This document shows positions 58,534 to 64,000 of a DNA stretch of 64,000 nucleotides, piece after piece (positions within the stretch are counted from its first letter, which is position 1; every line of letters starts with the position of its first letter). Made by a program: the position numbers and the translations under genes. The notes below the pieces were generated by a model, which did not search any database, was not told where the DNA came from, and saw nothing but the letters and a program-made list of their open reading frames with translations. The DNA is from Desulfopila aestuarii DSM 18488 (GTDB taxonomy: Bacteria; Desulfobacterota; Desulfobulbia; Desulfobulbales; Desulfocapsaceae): contig CAMBBS010000008.1 in the NCBI GenBank assembly GCA_945863875.1, positions 1-64,000 on the forward strand. Direction: 5' to 3'.

Positions 58534-59784
58534 TTACGGCATGCGGTACAGGCTGCTGATTGTCTTCGGCAGGTCTCCTTTCGGCACCAGGCGGCCATCG
58601 CTACCCACCTCGTAGAGGCCGAACCACTCTTCCGGGTCTTGCCGCTCATGGCGGCTCGAATCGGTTGGGTCCTCGCCACTCTTCCACCACTCGTCGTGCA
58701 GTTCAAAAAAGGCCACGCCGCAATATTTCTCCTTTCCTTTGGCGGTACGGATATCCTGCCAGACGGCGGCAAAATCCTTTGCCGCCGTCTCTACCTGGTG
58801 GCCGCCAAAACCGGGCACCCAGGATTTTGGCTCAAAAGGTGACGTGGACAGCCCCACCTGGGTGATAAATATTGGTTTGTCCGTTCCGGCAGCGAGTTCC
58901 TCCAGATACCCTTGATAGCTGGTGCCGGTGACGGACCCGGGGGGGGAGGTCCGTACGCCATTGGCGTAGGTATAGACGTTCAGGCAGACCAGGTCACCCA
59001 GATCAGGATTGAGGATGTGCTCCTTGGGTACTTCAAGGTCGGGCCGATCGGAGACGGGACCGATATGCGTCCAGCTGGTGTGGCAATAGAGATGCCTTTG
59101 ACCATAACGGCTCAATTCATATTCCATGGCCCCGTCGATCAATCGGGCAAGGGCGATTTCGGTCGGCGTCCGGTTGCTTACCTGCAGATGTTTCCCCTTG
59201 TAGCTGCGCACTTCGGGATGGCGACTGTTCGTTCTGACCACGGCATCGGCCTGCAGCTCATCCCCGACGGAAAAGAAGACCAGCCGATCGGGCCGGCCAA
59301 CCGTGTAGGTATGATCAATGACGCCCTTGATGTCCTCAAGGGTCTTGGCGAGAAACGGTTCCGCCAGGAAATCCTCTTCATAGGCCCAGATCCAGATATC
59401 CTGGCCGTAGACCATCTCGGTCTGATCAAGCGCCGCGAAGAATTTTTTTGGCATGTTCCTGGGGAAAACATGCACATAGGAAACTGCCATATCCTGCATC
59501 AAACCGAGGTGTTCCGTATACCGGTCATCATCTCCGGGGGGCGCACCATACAGCGGGGTTTCGTTGGGCAGATAGGGGGAATAGCCTATCCCCCTGAAAA
59601 AGACCGCTTTCTGTTTCTGCAGATCAATGAGCTCGGCACCTCGCGTCACAAACCTCGTTGGCGCAGGTGTAGCCGGCGATATCCCGCCACTTTTTTCCGC
59701 GCCTTGGCCGGCGGCCAGGGCAAAACCGGCAAGCTGGGAAACACTTGTCCCGAAAAACCAAATGAGAAGAAGTCGACAAAGCAT
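58534..59784 (-). CDS. Exported glycoside hydrolase-like TIM-barrel protein
   Basis: This 416-residue protein has a signal peptide (1-25) and a Pro/Ala-rich linker. The catalytic-type barrel begins with RGAELIDLQKQKAVFFRGIGY (RGIGYSP being the family-type first strand) and continues HVFPRNMPKKFFAAL. The acid/base position is E176 in FFSVGDELQAD, where clan A has NE. The nucleophile strand reads FITQVG with Q309, where Glu is usual. The C-terminus has VAFFELHDEWWKSGEDPT. The barrel probably binds a glucan, but the usual nucleophile is absent. Family is uncertain (GH17/GH72/GH2-like). Confidence 0.68.
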   Translation of the reverse strand: MLCRLLLIWFFGTSVSQLAGFALAAGQGAEKSGGISPATPAPTRFVTRGAELIDLQKQKAVFFRGIGYSPYLPNETPLYGAPPGDDDRYTEHLGLMQDMAVSYVHVFPRNMPKKFFAALDQTEMVYGQDIWIWAYEEDFLAEPFLAKTLEDIKGVIDHTYTVGRPDRLVFFSVGDELQADAVVRTNSRHPEVRSYKGKHLQVSNRTPTEIALARLIDGAMEYELSRYGQRHLYCHTSWTHIGPVSDRPDLEVPKEHILNPDLGDLVCLNVYTYANGVRTSPPGSVTGTSYQGYLEELAAGTDKPIFITQVGLSTSPFEPKSWVPGFGGHQVETAAKDFAAVWQDIRTAKGKEKYCGVAFFELHDEWWKSGEDPTDSSRHERQDPEEWFGLYEVGSDGRLVPKGDLPKTISSLYRMP

Positions 59785-60321: not shown

Positions 60322-61092
60322 CTACTCGATCTTTTTCAGACTGATCGGATTCGGCGCCATGCGCGCATAGCCCTTTCCCTGGGCAATGATGTCGAGAGGG
60401 AGGCTGGACAGATCCGCCAGGTCCATCGTCATTTCATGGAGAACCGAGTGCTCCATGACCTTCACATAGGTTTGACACGCATCGCAGGTGACCACCCGGA
60501 ACCCAGGTTCATCGTCGGAGACGATGCTGTTGAGTTTGGCCGTGTCGATGGTTGCACAGTTTGGACAGCCGATAAAGCGGTATGGGCCGGAGGTGCCGCA
60601 GAAGGAGCAGTGCAGGTTGCGTTTGGGACCCTCGATGACGGATGTCAGGGCCGCCCGAGCTGAGCACAGGGGACAGCGGCCCTCCTCCCAGGGGCTGCCA
60701 TCCAACGGGAAGGTCTCGCCCAGGGCGAGAAAGTAGGGTCGGGCCAGCAGGAAAAGGATCCCGGCCTGCTCTTCTTGGCTATATGGCAGGGAAGAGAGCA
60801 GAGGAAACTCACCAATCGGCAGGCGCATGAAATCGACATCACCATCTTCCAGGGCCTGACGCAGCGGTTTCATTTCCTCACCGGGCAGGCCGAAGATGTC
60901 GACAAATAATTGCCAGACGGCAGCGGCGCCGTCCCGCGGATAGGCCTTGGACTCCGCCGGCGGCACCGCTGATGTCTTTTTTTGCATCAGCTCGGTAACT
61001 TGCTGTTGAAAGCCCTGCCATTTGGCATACAGCTCGAGTGGGTCTTTCAGGTGCGGTCTCTTTTCGATCAAGGCCGGTATATCAATGGTCAT
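60322..61092 (-). CDS. fdhE: Formate dehydrogenase accessory protein FdhE
   Basis: This 256-residue iron-binding rubredoxin-like protein is needed for FDH activity and interacts with the catalytic subunit. Four C-x2-C pairs define it: C140/C143 (CPLC), C162/C165 (CSFC), C176/C179 (CPNC) and C203/C206 (CDAC). The N-terminal helical half (1-125) and the C-terminal LPLDIIAQGKGY are also typical. It ends a five-gene FDH-type operon and follows the di-haem peroxidase gene after eight bases. Confidence 0.93.
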   Translation of the reverse strand: MTIDIPALIEKRPHLKDPLELYAKWQGFQQQVTELMQKKTSAVPPAESKAYPRDGAAAVWQLFVDIFGLPGEEMKPLRQALEDGDVDFMRLPIGEFPLLSSLPYSQEEQAGILFLLARPYFLALGETFPLDGSPWEEGRCPLCSARAALTSVIEGPKRNLHCSFCGTSGPYRFIGCPNCATIDTAKLNSIVSDDEPGFRVVTCDACQTYVKVMEHSVLHEMTMDLADLSSLPLDIIAQGKGYARMAPNPISLKKIE

Positions 61093-61100
61093 AATGCTCC

Positions 61101-62156
61101 TTATGGAATTTTGGGGTAGATAAAGTCGACCGGCACGCCGGACAATCCTTCTTCGAGAAAAACCCTGAGCTGCTCTTTCTCTGTGGGTGAGAGGTGCAGG
61201 GGCTTCAGCACGGTGTTGTCCTTGCCGCCTCCCGCGTTGAAGAATTCAATGACCTCATCCAGGGTCTCATAGATGCCGTTATGCATGTAAGGAGCGGTCA
61301 AGGCAATTTCCCTGAGCGTCGGCGTTCTGAATGCCTGCCAGTCTTTCCGGTCGTTTGTAATGAGGTATCTGCCGGGATCCTCGGCGAGCGTCCTGTACTC
61401 CTCGAAATGAGAGACTTTGGCGACAAACCGGCGCGTTGCCGCAATCCGCGGGTCGTTTAAGTGCTCCGGATTCTCCTGGACGCCAAGGACGTAGAAACGG
61501 TCATCGGCCAGGGCGGCACCGCCATGGCACCGAACACACTGCCCTTTGCCGGTAAATATCGCATACCCCTGCAGCGCCTCGGGCGAGAGTGCGTTTTCAT
61601 CTCCTGTGAGAAACCGGTCAAGGGCGGCATCGCGTGAGACAAGGGACCGCTCGAATGCGGCGATGGCCATAGCGATGCGTTCCCGGCTTGTGTCCCCGTC
61701 GCCAAAAACCTCGGTGAACGCGGTTTCGTATTCCGGTACGGCGCGGATCTCTTCTTCCATATAGTCGAGGTTCTGGTTCATTTCGAAGGCGGACATCATC
61801 GGAAACAGCGCCTGCTCCTCAAGACTTGACGCCCGTCCATCATGAAACAGCAATTTCTGGAAGGCGACATTTATCAGCGTCGGAGAGTTGCGCCAGTTCC
61901 GGGTTGTCGGATAGTTGAGGGAAATTTCCAGGCCATCACTGTAGGCCAGATTCGGATCATGGCAGGTCGCACAGCTCATGGTGCCGTCACCGGACAACCG
62001 CCGGTCGAAAAAAAGCTTCTTGCCGAGTTCTACTTTTGCCTCCGTCTGCGGATTGTTATCCGGGACGGGGACTTTTCCGACCGGCAAAAGCGGGCCGGTC
62101 ATTCCACAAACCGGCAGACAAAGCAGCATGAGAATCATGCAAAATATTTTTTTCAT
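61101..62156 (-). CDS. Di-haem cytochrome c peroxidase (MauG/CcpA type)
   Basis: This 351-residue periplasmic protein has a signal peptide (about 1-20). Haem c motif 1 is CATCH (C62, C65, H66) and motif 2 is CVRCH (C207, C210, H211). Also visible are LGKKLFFDRRLSGDGTMSC, NSPTLINVAF and FRTPTLREIALTAPYMHNG, all standard for bacterial CcpA-type enzymes that reduce hydrogen peroxide. It sits between the selenocysteine-containing DsbA-like gene (4 bases apart) and fdhE (8 bases), so it is co-transcribed with FDH functions, presumably to protect periplasmic redox proteins. Confidence 0.93.
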   Translation of the reverse strand: MKKIFCMILMLLCLPVCGMTGPLLPVGKVPVPDNNPQTEAKVELGKKLFFDRRLSGDGTMSCATCHDPNLAYSDGLEISLNYPTTRNWRNSPTLINVAFQKLLFHDGRASSLEEQALFPMMSAFEMNQNLDYMEEEIRAVPEYETAFTEVFGDGDTSRERIAMAIAAFERSLVSRDAALDRFLTGDENALSPEALQGYAIFTGKGQCVRCHGGAALADDRFYVLGVQENPEHLNDPRIAATRRFVAKVSHFEEYRTLAEDPGRYLITNDRKDWQAFRTPTLREIALTAPYMHNGIYETLDEVIEFFNAGGGKDNTVLKPLHLSPTEKEQLRVFLEEGLSGVPVDFIYPKIP

Positions 62157-62160
62157 CCGG

Positions 62161-62757
62161 CTACATTCCTTTCTGCTTCAATAGTTCGTCGATTATCTTC
62201 TTGAAGTACTCGAAGGGGCGTTCACCGACAATTTGACGGCCATTGATATAGAAGGTCGGTGTGTTGTAGAGATCTATTGACTCGGCGTACAGCACGTCGC
62301 CGTCAATCTCCTTGCTGTGCCCACCGCTGTCGATGGATTCGGTGAATTTCTTTACGTCAAGCCCCAACTCTTGTGCATAAGAGATGAGACTGGCCCGGTC
62401 GAGCTTGGGTGAACGGGTCAGGAGAATTTCATGCATCTCCCAGTATTTCCCCTGATCCCTTGCGGCCAGCGACGCCTCGGCAGCTGTTTTTGAGAAATCA
62501 CGGTATTTGTAGGGATAATTCTTAATGACACGTCTGATCTTGCCGGGGTAGGTCTGCATGAGCTGTTTGACGGTCGGACCGGCCGCCACACAATGCGGTC
62601 ATTGGAAATCGATAAACTCAATGATTGTCACCGGGGCATCTTCAGGCCCGAACGTGGGAGAGTCGCCAATGGGAATCTCGATCTTTTTCTCTTCCGCCTG
62701 AGCCATACCAAAGCATAACAGAAGAACAACACCTAGCAGTAATTTTTTCATCATCAT
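62161..62757 (-). CDS. DsbA/thioredoxin_4-like selenoprotein, in-frame TGA = Sec53
   Basis: The frame from the triple ATG at 62757 reads through one TGA (62599-62601) to the stop at 62161, giving 198 residues. It opens with a signal peptide (MMMKKLLLGVVLLLCFGMAQ), then FGPEDAPVTIIEFIDFQ, Sec53, PHC, then AAGPTVKQLMQTYPGKIR and a C-terminal NTPTFYINGRQIVGERPFEY. This is the thioredoxin_4 (DsbA) fold whose active site is normally C-P-[HY]-C. Here the first, nucleophilic Cys is TGA. Conservation continues uninterrupted on both sides, so this is not a broken gene. A SECIS-like hairpin follows. It probably forms or isomerises disulfides in the periplasm with a selenolate nucleophile. Confidence 0.85.
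62566..62601 (-). promoter_or_regulatory. SECIS-like element after in-frame TGA
   Basis: Starting 18 bases after the TGA the minus strand has a GGTCC apical loop (62580-62576) closed by CGGcC/GaCCG with one mismatch. The loop position and GGTC sequence match, as I recall, E. coli fdhF SECIS, where GGUCU also begins 18 nt after UGA. SelB would bind this element. Confidence 0.6.
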
Positions 62758-62832: not shown

Positions 62833-62861
62833 AAAAAGGGGATACCGCAGTATCCCCTTTT
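62833..62861 (-). terminator. Terminator between cytochrome b and dsbA-like genes
   Basis: An 11-bp stem (AAAAGGGGATA/TATCCCCTTTT, 62834-62844 with 62851-62861) has a six-base loop. It has a T run in both orientations. On the minus strand it follows the cytochrome b stop by 31 bases, so it partially or fully separates FDH from the dsbA-ccp-fdhE genes, which would need their own promoter in 62758-62832 if it is efficient. Confidence 0.75.
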
Positions 62862-62892: not shown

Positions 62893-63498
62893 TTACATCT
62901 TTCCAGCTGCTTTCATCCACTTGGGATAACGTCTCTTTGCTTCACTGAGCGGCAGGGTGCCGCTGACCATCAGCTTGAACGTCCCCGGATTTGCCAGTGT
63001 CCCTAGATAAACGTGCACCGGCACGGCGATAACAAAGACGATGAAGGCAATATTATGCACCAGGTGGGCAAGAAGCAACATCGACGCATTGTCTTTCATA
63101 AACCAGAGGGCGAAACCGGACAGGGCAATGGCAATACCGGCACCGACAATGGCCAGATAATAGAGCTTCTGCCCCGGATTGTATTTGCCCATCGGCGGAA
63201 CCGTCACCTTGTGTGACAAATACCCGCCGGCCACCTTGAACCATTGCACATCGTCGGCGTCATACTCCAGGGCATCCTTGAAATAGTGGCGCATGGAGTA
63301 GAGCAGGGACAGACTGAAAACCACCCCGCCATAATTGTGCACTGTTTTCATACCGTTCACTCCGCCGAAAACGGAACTGACCGCTTCCCAGTGGAACAGG
63401 AAGGCGAAGCCCGTGATCATCAGCAGGATGCAGCTTCCGGCGAGGATCCAGTGGTTCAGGATCTCGTCGACACTCGATTTTCTTACCATCTCGGCCAT
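62893..63498 (-). CDS. Formate dehydrogenase-type cytochrome b556 subunit
   Basis: This 201-residue membrane protein begins MAEMVRKSSVDEILNHWIL, with a strong AGGAGG before ATG 63498 (frame open to 63582). Four core helices are visible, with haem-ligand His in LNHWILAGS, VHNYGG and LAHLVHNIAFI, and the block HVYLGTLANPG is typical of FdoI/FdnI. It is shorter than the 305-residue FDH cytochrome b of the first locus. It overlaps or abuts the iron-sulfur subunit gene upstream. Confidence 0.9.
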   Translation of the reverse strand: MAEMVRKSSVDEILNHWILAGSCILLMITGFAFLFHWEAVSSVFGGVNGMKTVHNYGGVVFSLSLLYSMRHYFKDALEYDADDVQWFKVAGGYLSHKVTVPPMGKYNPGQKLYYLAIVGAGIAIALSGFALWFMKDNASMLLLAHLVHNIAFIVFVIAVPVHVYLGTLANPGTFKLMVSGTLPLSEAKRRYPKWMKAAGKM

Positions 63499-63499
63499 G

Positions 63500-64000
63500 T
63501 TACACCTCCTCTTCCTTTTCCTTGTGGGGGCCAATGGCCAGATAGTGAATCGCCGCCGCGGCAACCACACCGCCCAGACCAAACAACGAGAGCGGCTTCA
63601 GATACGTATGCCAGAAGACGACGCTGCTCGGAATGGTTGGATTTTCTTTCATACCGTACAGCTTGGGCTCATCCTTGAAGGCGAAGATCGTGCCCAGACC
63701 GCTCAGATCCTTTTCGCCATAAATGGTATTGAAACCGTCCTTTTTAGCGAGACTGATCAGCTCATCCCGATCACCGTATTTCAGTGCGCCGGTGGGGCAT
63801 GTCTTGACACAGGCCGGTTGCATCCCTGCAGTAATACGGTCGTCACAGAGGTTGCATTTGGCCACCTTATTTTCCGCATCGTAGCGGGGAACATCGAACG
63901 GACAGGCGGTAACGCAGAGCTTGCAGCCGATGCACTTGTCCCGATCGTAGGCCACGGCACCCTCCGCCGTCCGGTACAATGCCCCGGAAGGACAGATGGT
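63500..64000 (-). CDS. FDH-type iron-sulfur subunit, 5' end outside window
   Basis: The frame continues past the right edge (it reads TICPSGALYRTAEGAV at the edge). Visible clusters are CIGCKLCVTACPFDVPRYD, CNLCDDRITAGMQPACVKTCP and the edge CP. The C-terminus has the membrane helix PLSLFGLGGVVAAAAIHYLAI and a lysine/glutamate end. This is the FdnH/FdoH type, with C-terminal anchor, unlike the first-locus iron-sulfur subunit which lacks one. The catalytic subunit presumably lies just right of the window. Confidence 0.88.
   Translation of the reverse strand, partial: TICPSGALYRTAEGAVAYDRDKCIGCKLCVTACPFDVPRYDAENKVAKCNLCDDRITAGMQPACVKTCPTGALKYGDRDELISLAKKDGFNTIYGEKDLSGLGTIFAFKDEPKLYGMKENPTIPSSVVFWHTYLKPLSLFGLGGVVAAAAIHYLAIGPHKEKEEEV

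Follow-up and report, generated by a model that had tools for sequence, protein, structure and literature searches.

A gene of the DsbA type with an in-frame TGA very probably encodes a selenoprotein with a UPHC active site, next to a MauG-like gene and, as a rule, after formate dehydrogenase genes. The gene, called Sec-DsbA here, lies in the window, that is, the whole stretch of 64,000 nt of DNA that was analysed, and its product is predicted to be a DsbA-fold thiol oxidoreductase. Below, we report the conservation of the TGA and of the RNA that follows it, the link to one type of formate dehydrogenase, and the selenium machinery of the genome.

The in-frame TGA and its downstream hairpin

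The three features of the locus are the following.

62161-62757, minus strand: Sec-DsbA gene, 198 aa, with a signal-like N-terminal helix, a thioredoxin/DsbA fold, the active site U53-P-H-C56 and the TPT loop T166-P167-T168.
62599-62601, minus strand: in-frame TGA, the codon of U53, probably read as selenocysteine and kept among relatives.
62570-62586, minus strand: predicted bacterial SECIS hairpin with the loop GGTCC at 62576-62580, under comparative constraint.

The frame that runs from 62757 to 62161 ends in TAG and is interrupted once, at residue 53, by a TGA (62601-62599) in the context FIDFQ-U-PHC. The coordinates and counts of a preliminary description, which had noted a 198-codon minus-strand frame with a single TGA in FIDFQ-TGA-PHC, are correct, as is its expectation that standard gene calling would truncate the product to 142 residues: the table-11 ORF listing of the locus holds only a 142-aa piece, at 62161-62589. 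When C was substituted for U, Pfam recognized one continuous domain spanning the site (Thioredoxin_4, 1.6e-27; DSBA, 8.7e-18), and the AlphaFold model of the substituted protein has a mean pLDDT of 91.1, its best fold matches being alpha-DsbA2 (6eez, Z 23.0) and BdbD (3eu3, Z 22.8). Invariant columns among the 27 sequences compared support the active site and the TPT loop. The predicted protein carries the marks of DsbA-like enzymes, namely a thioredoxin fold with an inserted helical domain, a (C/U)xxC motif and a Pro loop, and we infer that it is exported.

We then considered the TGA among relatives. A script processed 84 loci from two overlapping collections; 79 of them, amounting to 60 distinct sequence windows, hold the active site of the subfamily, the five others being two C-terminal fragments, two remote Cys homologues and one locus without a match. 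TGA stands at the DsbA nucleophile in 79/79 site-holding loci, which belong to Desulfobulbales and Nitrospirota. The motif is UPHC or UAHC across the subfamily, and the sequence 3′ of the TGA is conserved. The record labels mostly read Desulfobulbaceae and relatives, or Nitrospirae/Thermodesulfovibrionales. The gene also occurs in cultured strains, such as Desulfofustis glycolicus DSM 9705 (L058) and Desulfopila aestuarii DSM 18488 (L064). Matches with E < 1e-50 were found in 32 of 144 genomes (the window's own included), with a TGA inside every one; the match in G059 also has a TAA close to its end. A phylum sample of 395 genomes added nine more members of the subfamily, all with TGA. Among remoter homologues, at 36-46% identity, 13 have TGC or TGT and one has TGA (L268), while L259, L265, L266 and L267 lie outside the codon-reading pattern. 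The closest Cys forms carry FECPFC at 44-46% identity and have no fdhA beside them in the fetched stretch. The suggestion that homologues would have Cys in place of the TGA is thus supported at a distance: the close ones all have TGA and the remoter ones mostly TGC or TGT. In every locus fetched, the subfamily appears from its sequences to be Sec-only. Nor is UGA simply a sense codon, since the genes of some Sec-DsbA relatives end in TGA as a real stop; a general sense reading was ruled out in this way.

Another family of the DsbA type, whose open frames span about 300 codons, is stop-free in some genomes and has one TGA in others. Copies were seen on contig C61 of the window's own genome, G000 (2337-2846; L002, with TGC), and in relatives, e.g. 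G077:C78.

Downstream of the TGA, a stem (62586-62581 paired with 62575-62570) encloses the loop GGTCC (62580-62576). A hairpin had been reported 18 bases after the TGA; it is the loop that begins there, whereas the stem already begins at 12 bases. A hairpin in a single sequence proves nothing, while comparison across relatives does, and the two gave different answers to the folding check that had been called for. Four stretches around the hairpin, folded alone, showed no extra stability over dinucleotide shuffles (z 0.97, 0.11, 0.55 and 0.25), but the relatives revealed a strong constraint at the RNA level. Indeed, at four-fold degenerate third positions, the mean entropy is 0.27 bits in the six hairpin-forming codons (+5 to +10 from the TGA), against 1.64 bits (lowest 0.85) at 44 other sites of the gene; this comparison is restricted to four-fold codons found in 50 or more of the 60 rows, with codon +4 (1.45 bits) in neither set.

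The base pairs themselves are also maintained. The six stem positions are paired in 60, 55, 60, 59, 28 and 60 of the 60 sequences, the weak one being internal (19-27), with C-A in 32 sequences, C-G in 21 and T-A in 7. Outside these six, a further pair is formed in 46/60, and in L046 double changes keep the pairing at two stem pairs. On average 5.37 of the six pairs are formed, compared to 4.10 (maximum 4.38) in 2,000 randomizations preserving the protein and the codon usage of each gene, an excess that is not a probability because the sequences are related. On this comparative evidence, the gene has a hairpin just 3′ of the UGA with a G opening its loop, as is required of a bacterial SECIS element. 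The GGTCC loop presumably resembles that of the E. coli fdhF SECIS. A Rfam scan of the 64,000-nt window returned 5S rRNA alone at gathering scores.

Gene neighbourhood and the formate dehydrogenase switch

The genes around Sec-DsbA, and the hairpin that precedes it, are listed below.

63500-64000, minus strand: formate dehydrogenase iron-sulfur (beta) subunit, ending at the window edge (Pfam Form-deh_trans, Fer4_11).
62893-63498, minus strand: formate dehydrogenase gamma subunit (cytochrome b), fdhC (TIGR01583, 119.9 bits, cut-off 115.85).
62834-62861, minus strand: terminator-/attenuator-like hairpin, AAAAGGGGATAC-TGCG-GTATCCCCTTTT, between fdhC and the Sec-DsbA gene.
61101-62156, minus strand: MauG/MbnH-like di-haem c-type protein with two CxxCH motifs (Pfam CCP_MauG, 3.6e-51).
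60322-61092, minus strand: FdhE-like formate dehydrogenase accessory protein (Pfam FdhE_C, 1.1e-9, over cut-off).
64282-67422 of contig C8, outside the window: FdhA with its own in-frame TGA (TIGR01553, 1390.8 bits).

A gap of 4 nt separates the Sec-DsbA stop from the MauG-like gene, whose product scores below the cut-offs of NCBIfam TIGR03791 and TIGR04039 (231.4 for 443.85 and 216.8 for 362.85 bits). The FdhE-like protein is below the cut-off of the NCBIfam FdhE model. The start of the gamma subunit was picked from the ORF list, and the search used 62893-63486, which leaves out the first residues of the protein. Downstream of fdhE, a 416-residue frame (58534-59784, minus strand) has no Pfam match at 0.001.

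In 46 of 49 Sec-DsbA loci the MauG-like gene comes next, the three others (L080, L089 and L091) reaching contig ends, and two CxxCH motifs are found in 46/46 of these neighbours. Gene calls in the same 49 loci include fdhA 37 times, a cytochrome b/NrfD-like subunit 36 times and fdhE 24 times; several of the missing calls are contig edges, and L059 also has fdhA by tblastn. The fdhABC genes, of a formate dehydrogenase of the periplasmic type, usually precede Sec-DsbA. Upstream of Sec-DsbA in the Nitrospirota loci L075, L077, L080 and L081 lie other genes; there is no FdhA hit, and the flank of 2.8-4.0 kb contains no fdh gene. A strong, A/T-flanked hairpin between fdhC and dsbA is present in 23/23 Desulfobulbales-type loci (L001, L048-L067, L069 and L094), and its arms covary in several of them; among 27 other loci it is strong in 5, weak in 6 and missing in 16. 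A general terminator scan did not list this hairpin and found terminators no more often than in shuffled sequence (4 vs 4.0). Altogether, the pairing of DsbA with MauG is tighter than its link to formate dehydrogenase.

By alignment, the neighbouring FdhA is related to its D. vulgaris counterpart. In the D. vulgaris enzyme, of which 6sdr is a structure according to the available part of the source (PMC11134731), a C845-C872 disulfide is described in the accessible portions of three papers as governing formate dehydrogenase activity and oxygen protection (PMC11323313, PMC11134731, PMC13397495). Counted along the alignment, C883 and C912 of the neighbouring FdhA correspond to C845 and C872, and the conserved Met is kept as well as both cysteines.

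Both switch cysteines are present in 52 of 53 FdhA rows linked to a DsbA-type gene (linked meaning a DsbA-profile match anywhere in the fetched stretch; among the 53, L211 repeats L064 and L335 has a DsbA of the Cys type) vs 38 of 84 unlinked rows (an upper bound for unlinked, as some end at contig edges, and with one row unreadable at the switch site), the two sets being drawn unalike, the linked rows mostly found via DsbA and the unlinked ones mostly via FdhA. The linked exception, L272, has C and N and has lost one switch cysteine. For the FdhA phylum sample, 60 of at least about 150 places were fetched, together with G398, G436 and G168; they were hand-picked, not random. In the sample of relatives, 28 of 30 unlinked FdhA rows lack both cysteines; L212 is unreadable, and L208 has both cysteines and ends at a contig edge, a DsbA piece opening another contig of that genome (L213). 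Nine places checked late stand outside the 52/53 and 38/84 counts, L338, L339 and L341-L346 among them. L346 is linked and has both cysteines, and L343 is unlinked and has neither. L338, L339 and L341 have both cysteines with FdhA at or near contig ends, and the genome of L339 has DsbA on another contig together with an FdhA tail (L340). L342, L344 and L345 are cut short of the switch site.

We also placed these proteins on a tree computed with FastTree without the switch columns, from 131 of the 137 FdhA rows (L048, L070, L078 and L093 were dropped as short, L212 as cut and L211 as repeating L064). All 48 linked rows fall in one 58-row clade (SH-like support 94), inside which both cysteines are present in 47/48 linked and 4/10 unlinked rows. 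A phylogeny-aware test of DsbA against the switch, run without L208 and L270 (contig edges), gave 5 independent contrasts and was not significant (median p 0.5); on average 2.1 contrasts go the same way, 0.2 the opposite way and 2.8 show no difference. With five independent contrasts, significance is therefore out of reach. Thus, linked formate dehydrogenases are of the switch type, but switch-type formate dehydrogenases do not need Sec-DsbA.

In G168 (L335, contig C24), a two-Cys FdhA is preceded, at a distance of 0.7 kb, by a Cys-type DsbA (CSFC), which may be an independent case of such a pairing.

Because a thiol protein is encoded here next to an enzyme whose surface disulfide is regulatory, Sec-DsbA is a natural candidate partner, and we tentatively propose it as the thiol-redox partner of the allosteric disulfide C883-C912 of FdhA. 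The product itself is very probably a 198-residue thiol oxidoreductase of the DsbA fold with a UPHC active site, and is predicted to be exported. It could reduce C883-C912 and thereby switch the enzyme on under anoxic conditions, or it could close the disulfide, while the MauG-like protein would exchange electrons with Sec-DsbA or remove peroxide. Selenocysteine at a nucleophile position has a lower pKa and allows faster exchange; selenium may here keep thiol exchange fast and resist over-oxidation. A bolder proposal, possible at best, casts Sec-DsbA, as a dedicated DsbA with obligate selenocysteine, and the MauG-like di-haem protein as a relay in the periplasm through which the allosteric disulfide of the adjacent formate dehydrogenase is opened or closed. 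Which way the electrons would flow, and what the di-haem protein would do, is guesswork. If such a relay were real, Sec-DsbA, the di-haem protein and the Sec-containing formate dehydrogenase, three redox elements encoded side by side, would jointly set whether CO2/formate chemistry proceeds under oxygen stress.

Several observations argue against the switch partnership: the four Nitrospirota loci have no fdh gene in their stored upstream flank, 38 two-Cys FdhA rows have no DsbA neighbour (some at contig edges), one linked FdhA (L272) lacks one switch cysteine, a terminator-like hairpin parts fdhC from dsbA, and all linked FdhA lie in one clade. Moreover, in the part of a 2006 list of selenoproteins that is available, D. 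vulgaris has no DsbA-like selenoprotein (PMC1794560).

As the DsbA-MauG pair is the more constant one, the chief alternative takes the MauG-like protein for the true partner, with Sec-DsbA keeping its haem-binding or other thiols reduced or feeding it electrons, and formate dehydrogenase being merely a frequent neighbour. The adjacency in 46/49 loci with contig ends for the other three, the two CxxCH motifs in 46/46, the four loci without fdh and the hairpin separating fdhC from dsbA in 23/23 Desulfobulbales-type loci all speak for it. We consider it less likely than not; on the other side stand the calls of FdhA in 37 and FdhE in 24 of the 49 loci, and the two-Cys type of nearly every linked FdhA. 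A more general role in the assembly or quality control of formate dehydrogenase, making or repairing disulfides or protecting Sec/Cys ligands with no role for C883-C912, is unlikely. While an fdhE-like gene does belong to the cluster in 24/49 loci, FdhA paralogues without the two cysteines, mostly Sec-containing themselves, adjoin such a DsbA gene in 0/28 cases in the sample of relatives.

Selenium machinery and the decoding of the UGA

G000, the window's own genome (4.69 Mb, 93 contigs, 98.5% complete), encodes SelB, SelA and two SelD, all above cut-offs, and each selD gene has one in-frame TGA. Only one tRNA exceeds the tRNA-Sec cut-off of Rfam; its anticodon is GCA, and a T follows its acceptor stem.

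L149, 5001-5090 (contig C30 of G000), minus strand: selC*-type gene resembling tRNA-Sec, anticodon GCA, found with Rfam.

U73 and GCA are features of the selC* tRNA-Cys in the part of the source available (PMC7609411). This gene lies near a UGA-containing selD, a yedF-like gene and a gene for an Fe-S protein, the last two named by sequence reading.

A canonical tRNA-Sec with a UCA anticodon was not found in the 93-contig assembly by Rfam, by its glyQ neighbour or by its acyltransferase neighbour. In comparison, 123 of 144 genomes have a tRNA-Sec match at E 1e-8 or better, and within 6 kb of canonical selC a glyQ-like gene was present in 11 and an acyltransferase-like gene in 14 of 16 loci, both names being assigned from reading the sequences. 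In G000 the glyQ flank is rearranged and holds no tRNA, and the acyltransferase neighbour has no match, an empty search that carries little weight. The machinery that the preliminary description had expected, selA, selB, selC and selD, is therefore there for SelA, SelB and two SelD, but selC was seen only as the GCA gene and not in the UCA form; likewise, the absence of SelB and SelC, which had been named as an argument against selenocysteine, applies in half, as SelB is there and a UCA selC did not turn up in this assembly. The canonical selC of G000 is either lost or in an assembly gap, and we lean to the gap because SelA and SelD are kept.

A reading of the UGA as cysteine in this strain, by the GCA tRNA with SelB and with the canonical tRNA-Sec gene gone, would fit the GCA gene with its T after the acceptor stem being the only one above the Rfam cut-off, and a glyQ flank, a usual site of canonical selC in relatives, that is rearranged and without tRNA. 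It is quite improbable all the same: SelA and two SelD are kept and are sensible only with tRNA-Sec, and the assembly is in 93 contigs at 98.5% completeness. Furthermore, six relatives that have the GCA gene also have a second, higher-scoring tRNA-Sec match, in four of which UCA was read. A nonsense mutation, sequencing error or pseudogene, which the isolated stop in a frame that is intact elsewhere would fit, is next to impossible and was ruled out: the same TGA recurs in 79/79 site-holding loci from two phyla and the sequence after it is conserved.

From the conservation of the TGA, the RNA constraint and SelA, SelB and SelD in the genome, which support the selenocysteine reading put forward in the preliminary description, we infer that UGA 62601-62599 is read as selenocysteine in the cell. 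The ribosome would do so using SelB and the downstream SECIS hairpin.

A longer, second tRNA-Sec-like gene of 96-100 nt with a CTTCAA anticodon loop was observed in L133, L134, L140, L141, L143, L136 and L132, the first five of which share the genus code g5. Six of the seven genomes with this long form have a 94-nt tRNA-Sec match on another contig, and G046 has the long form only. A tRNA-ReC was reportedly described by Vargas-Rodriguez and others in 2018.

Comparison with known systems

DsbA-like selenoproteins with UxxC have been known since 2005, as far as the available parts of the sources go (PMC1088965; also PMC1794560 and PMC13188914); they appear there as a COG2761 DsbA-like protein from the Sargasso Sea in 2005 and as form 1 of PF01323 in a 2026 review. 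In those parts, they are listed with no link to formate dehydrogenase or MauG and no partner is named. Among the NCBIfam models, none fits Sec-DsbA above its cut-off. The best is NF041057 (Rcas_1661 thioredoxin-like (seleno)lipoprotein), with 87.4 bits over residues 35-191, far under the curated cut-off of 190; this family is given as DsbG-like in the accessible portion of the review (PMC13188914).

By structure, the model of Sec-DsbA is closest to alpha-DsbA2 (6eez, over 172 residues) and BdbD (3eu3, over 171), followed by 6mhh and 5idr (both Z 21.8, over 189 and 167 residues), the matched set including ScsC periplasmic DsbA-type enzymes. Identity of alpha-DsbA2, BdbD and ScsC to Sec-DsbA is 20-27%. 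All three are known as Cys enzymes.

The D. vulgaris FdhAB switch shares both cysteines and the conserved Met with the FdhA next to Sec-DsbA, and no dedicated thiol partner is named for it in the parts of the literature at hand; in the same way, the accessible parts of the open-licence literature gave no tie between a DsbA-like selenoprotein and formate dehydrogenase. Our study connects a subfamily that table-11 gene calling truncates, by the arrangement of the genes, with a particular kind of formate dehydrogenase. This kind is under study for CO2 reduction, and its activity hinges on the reduction of a disulfide at the surface. Sec-DsbA is thus a concrete, testable candidate for the physiological thiol partner of the formate dehydrogenase switch.
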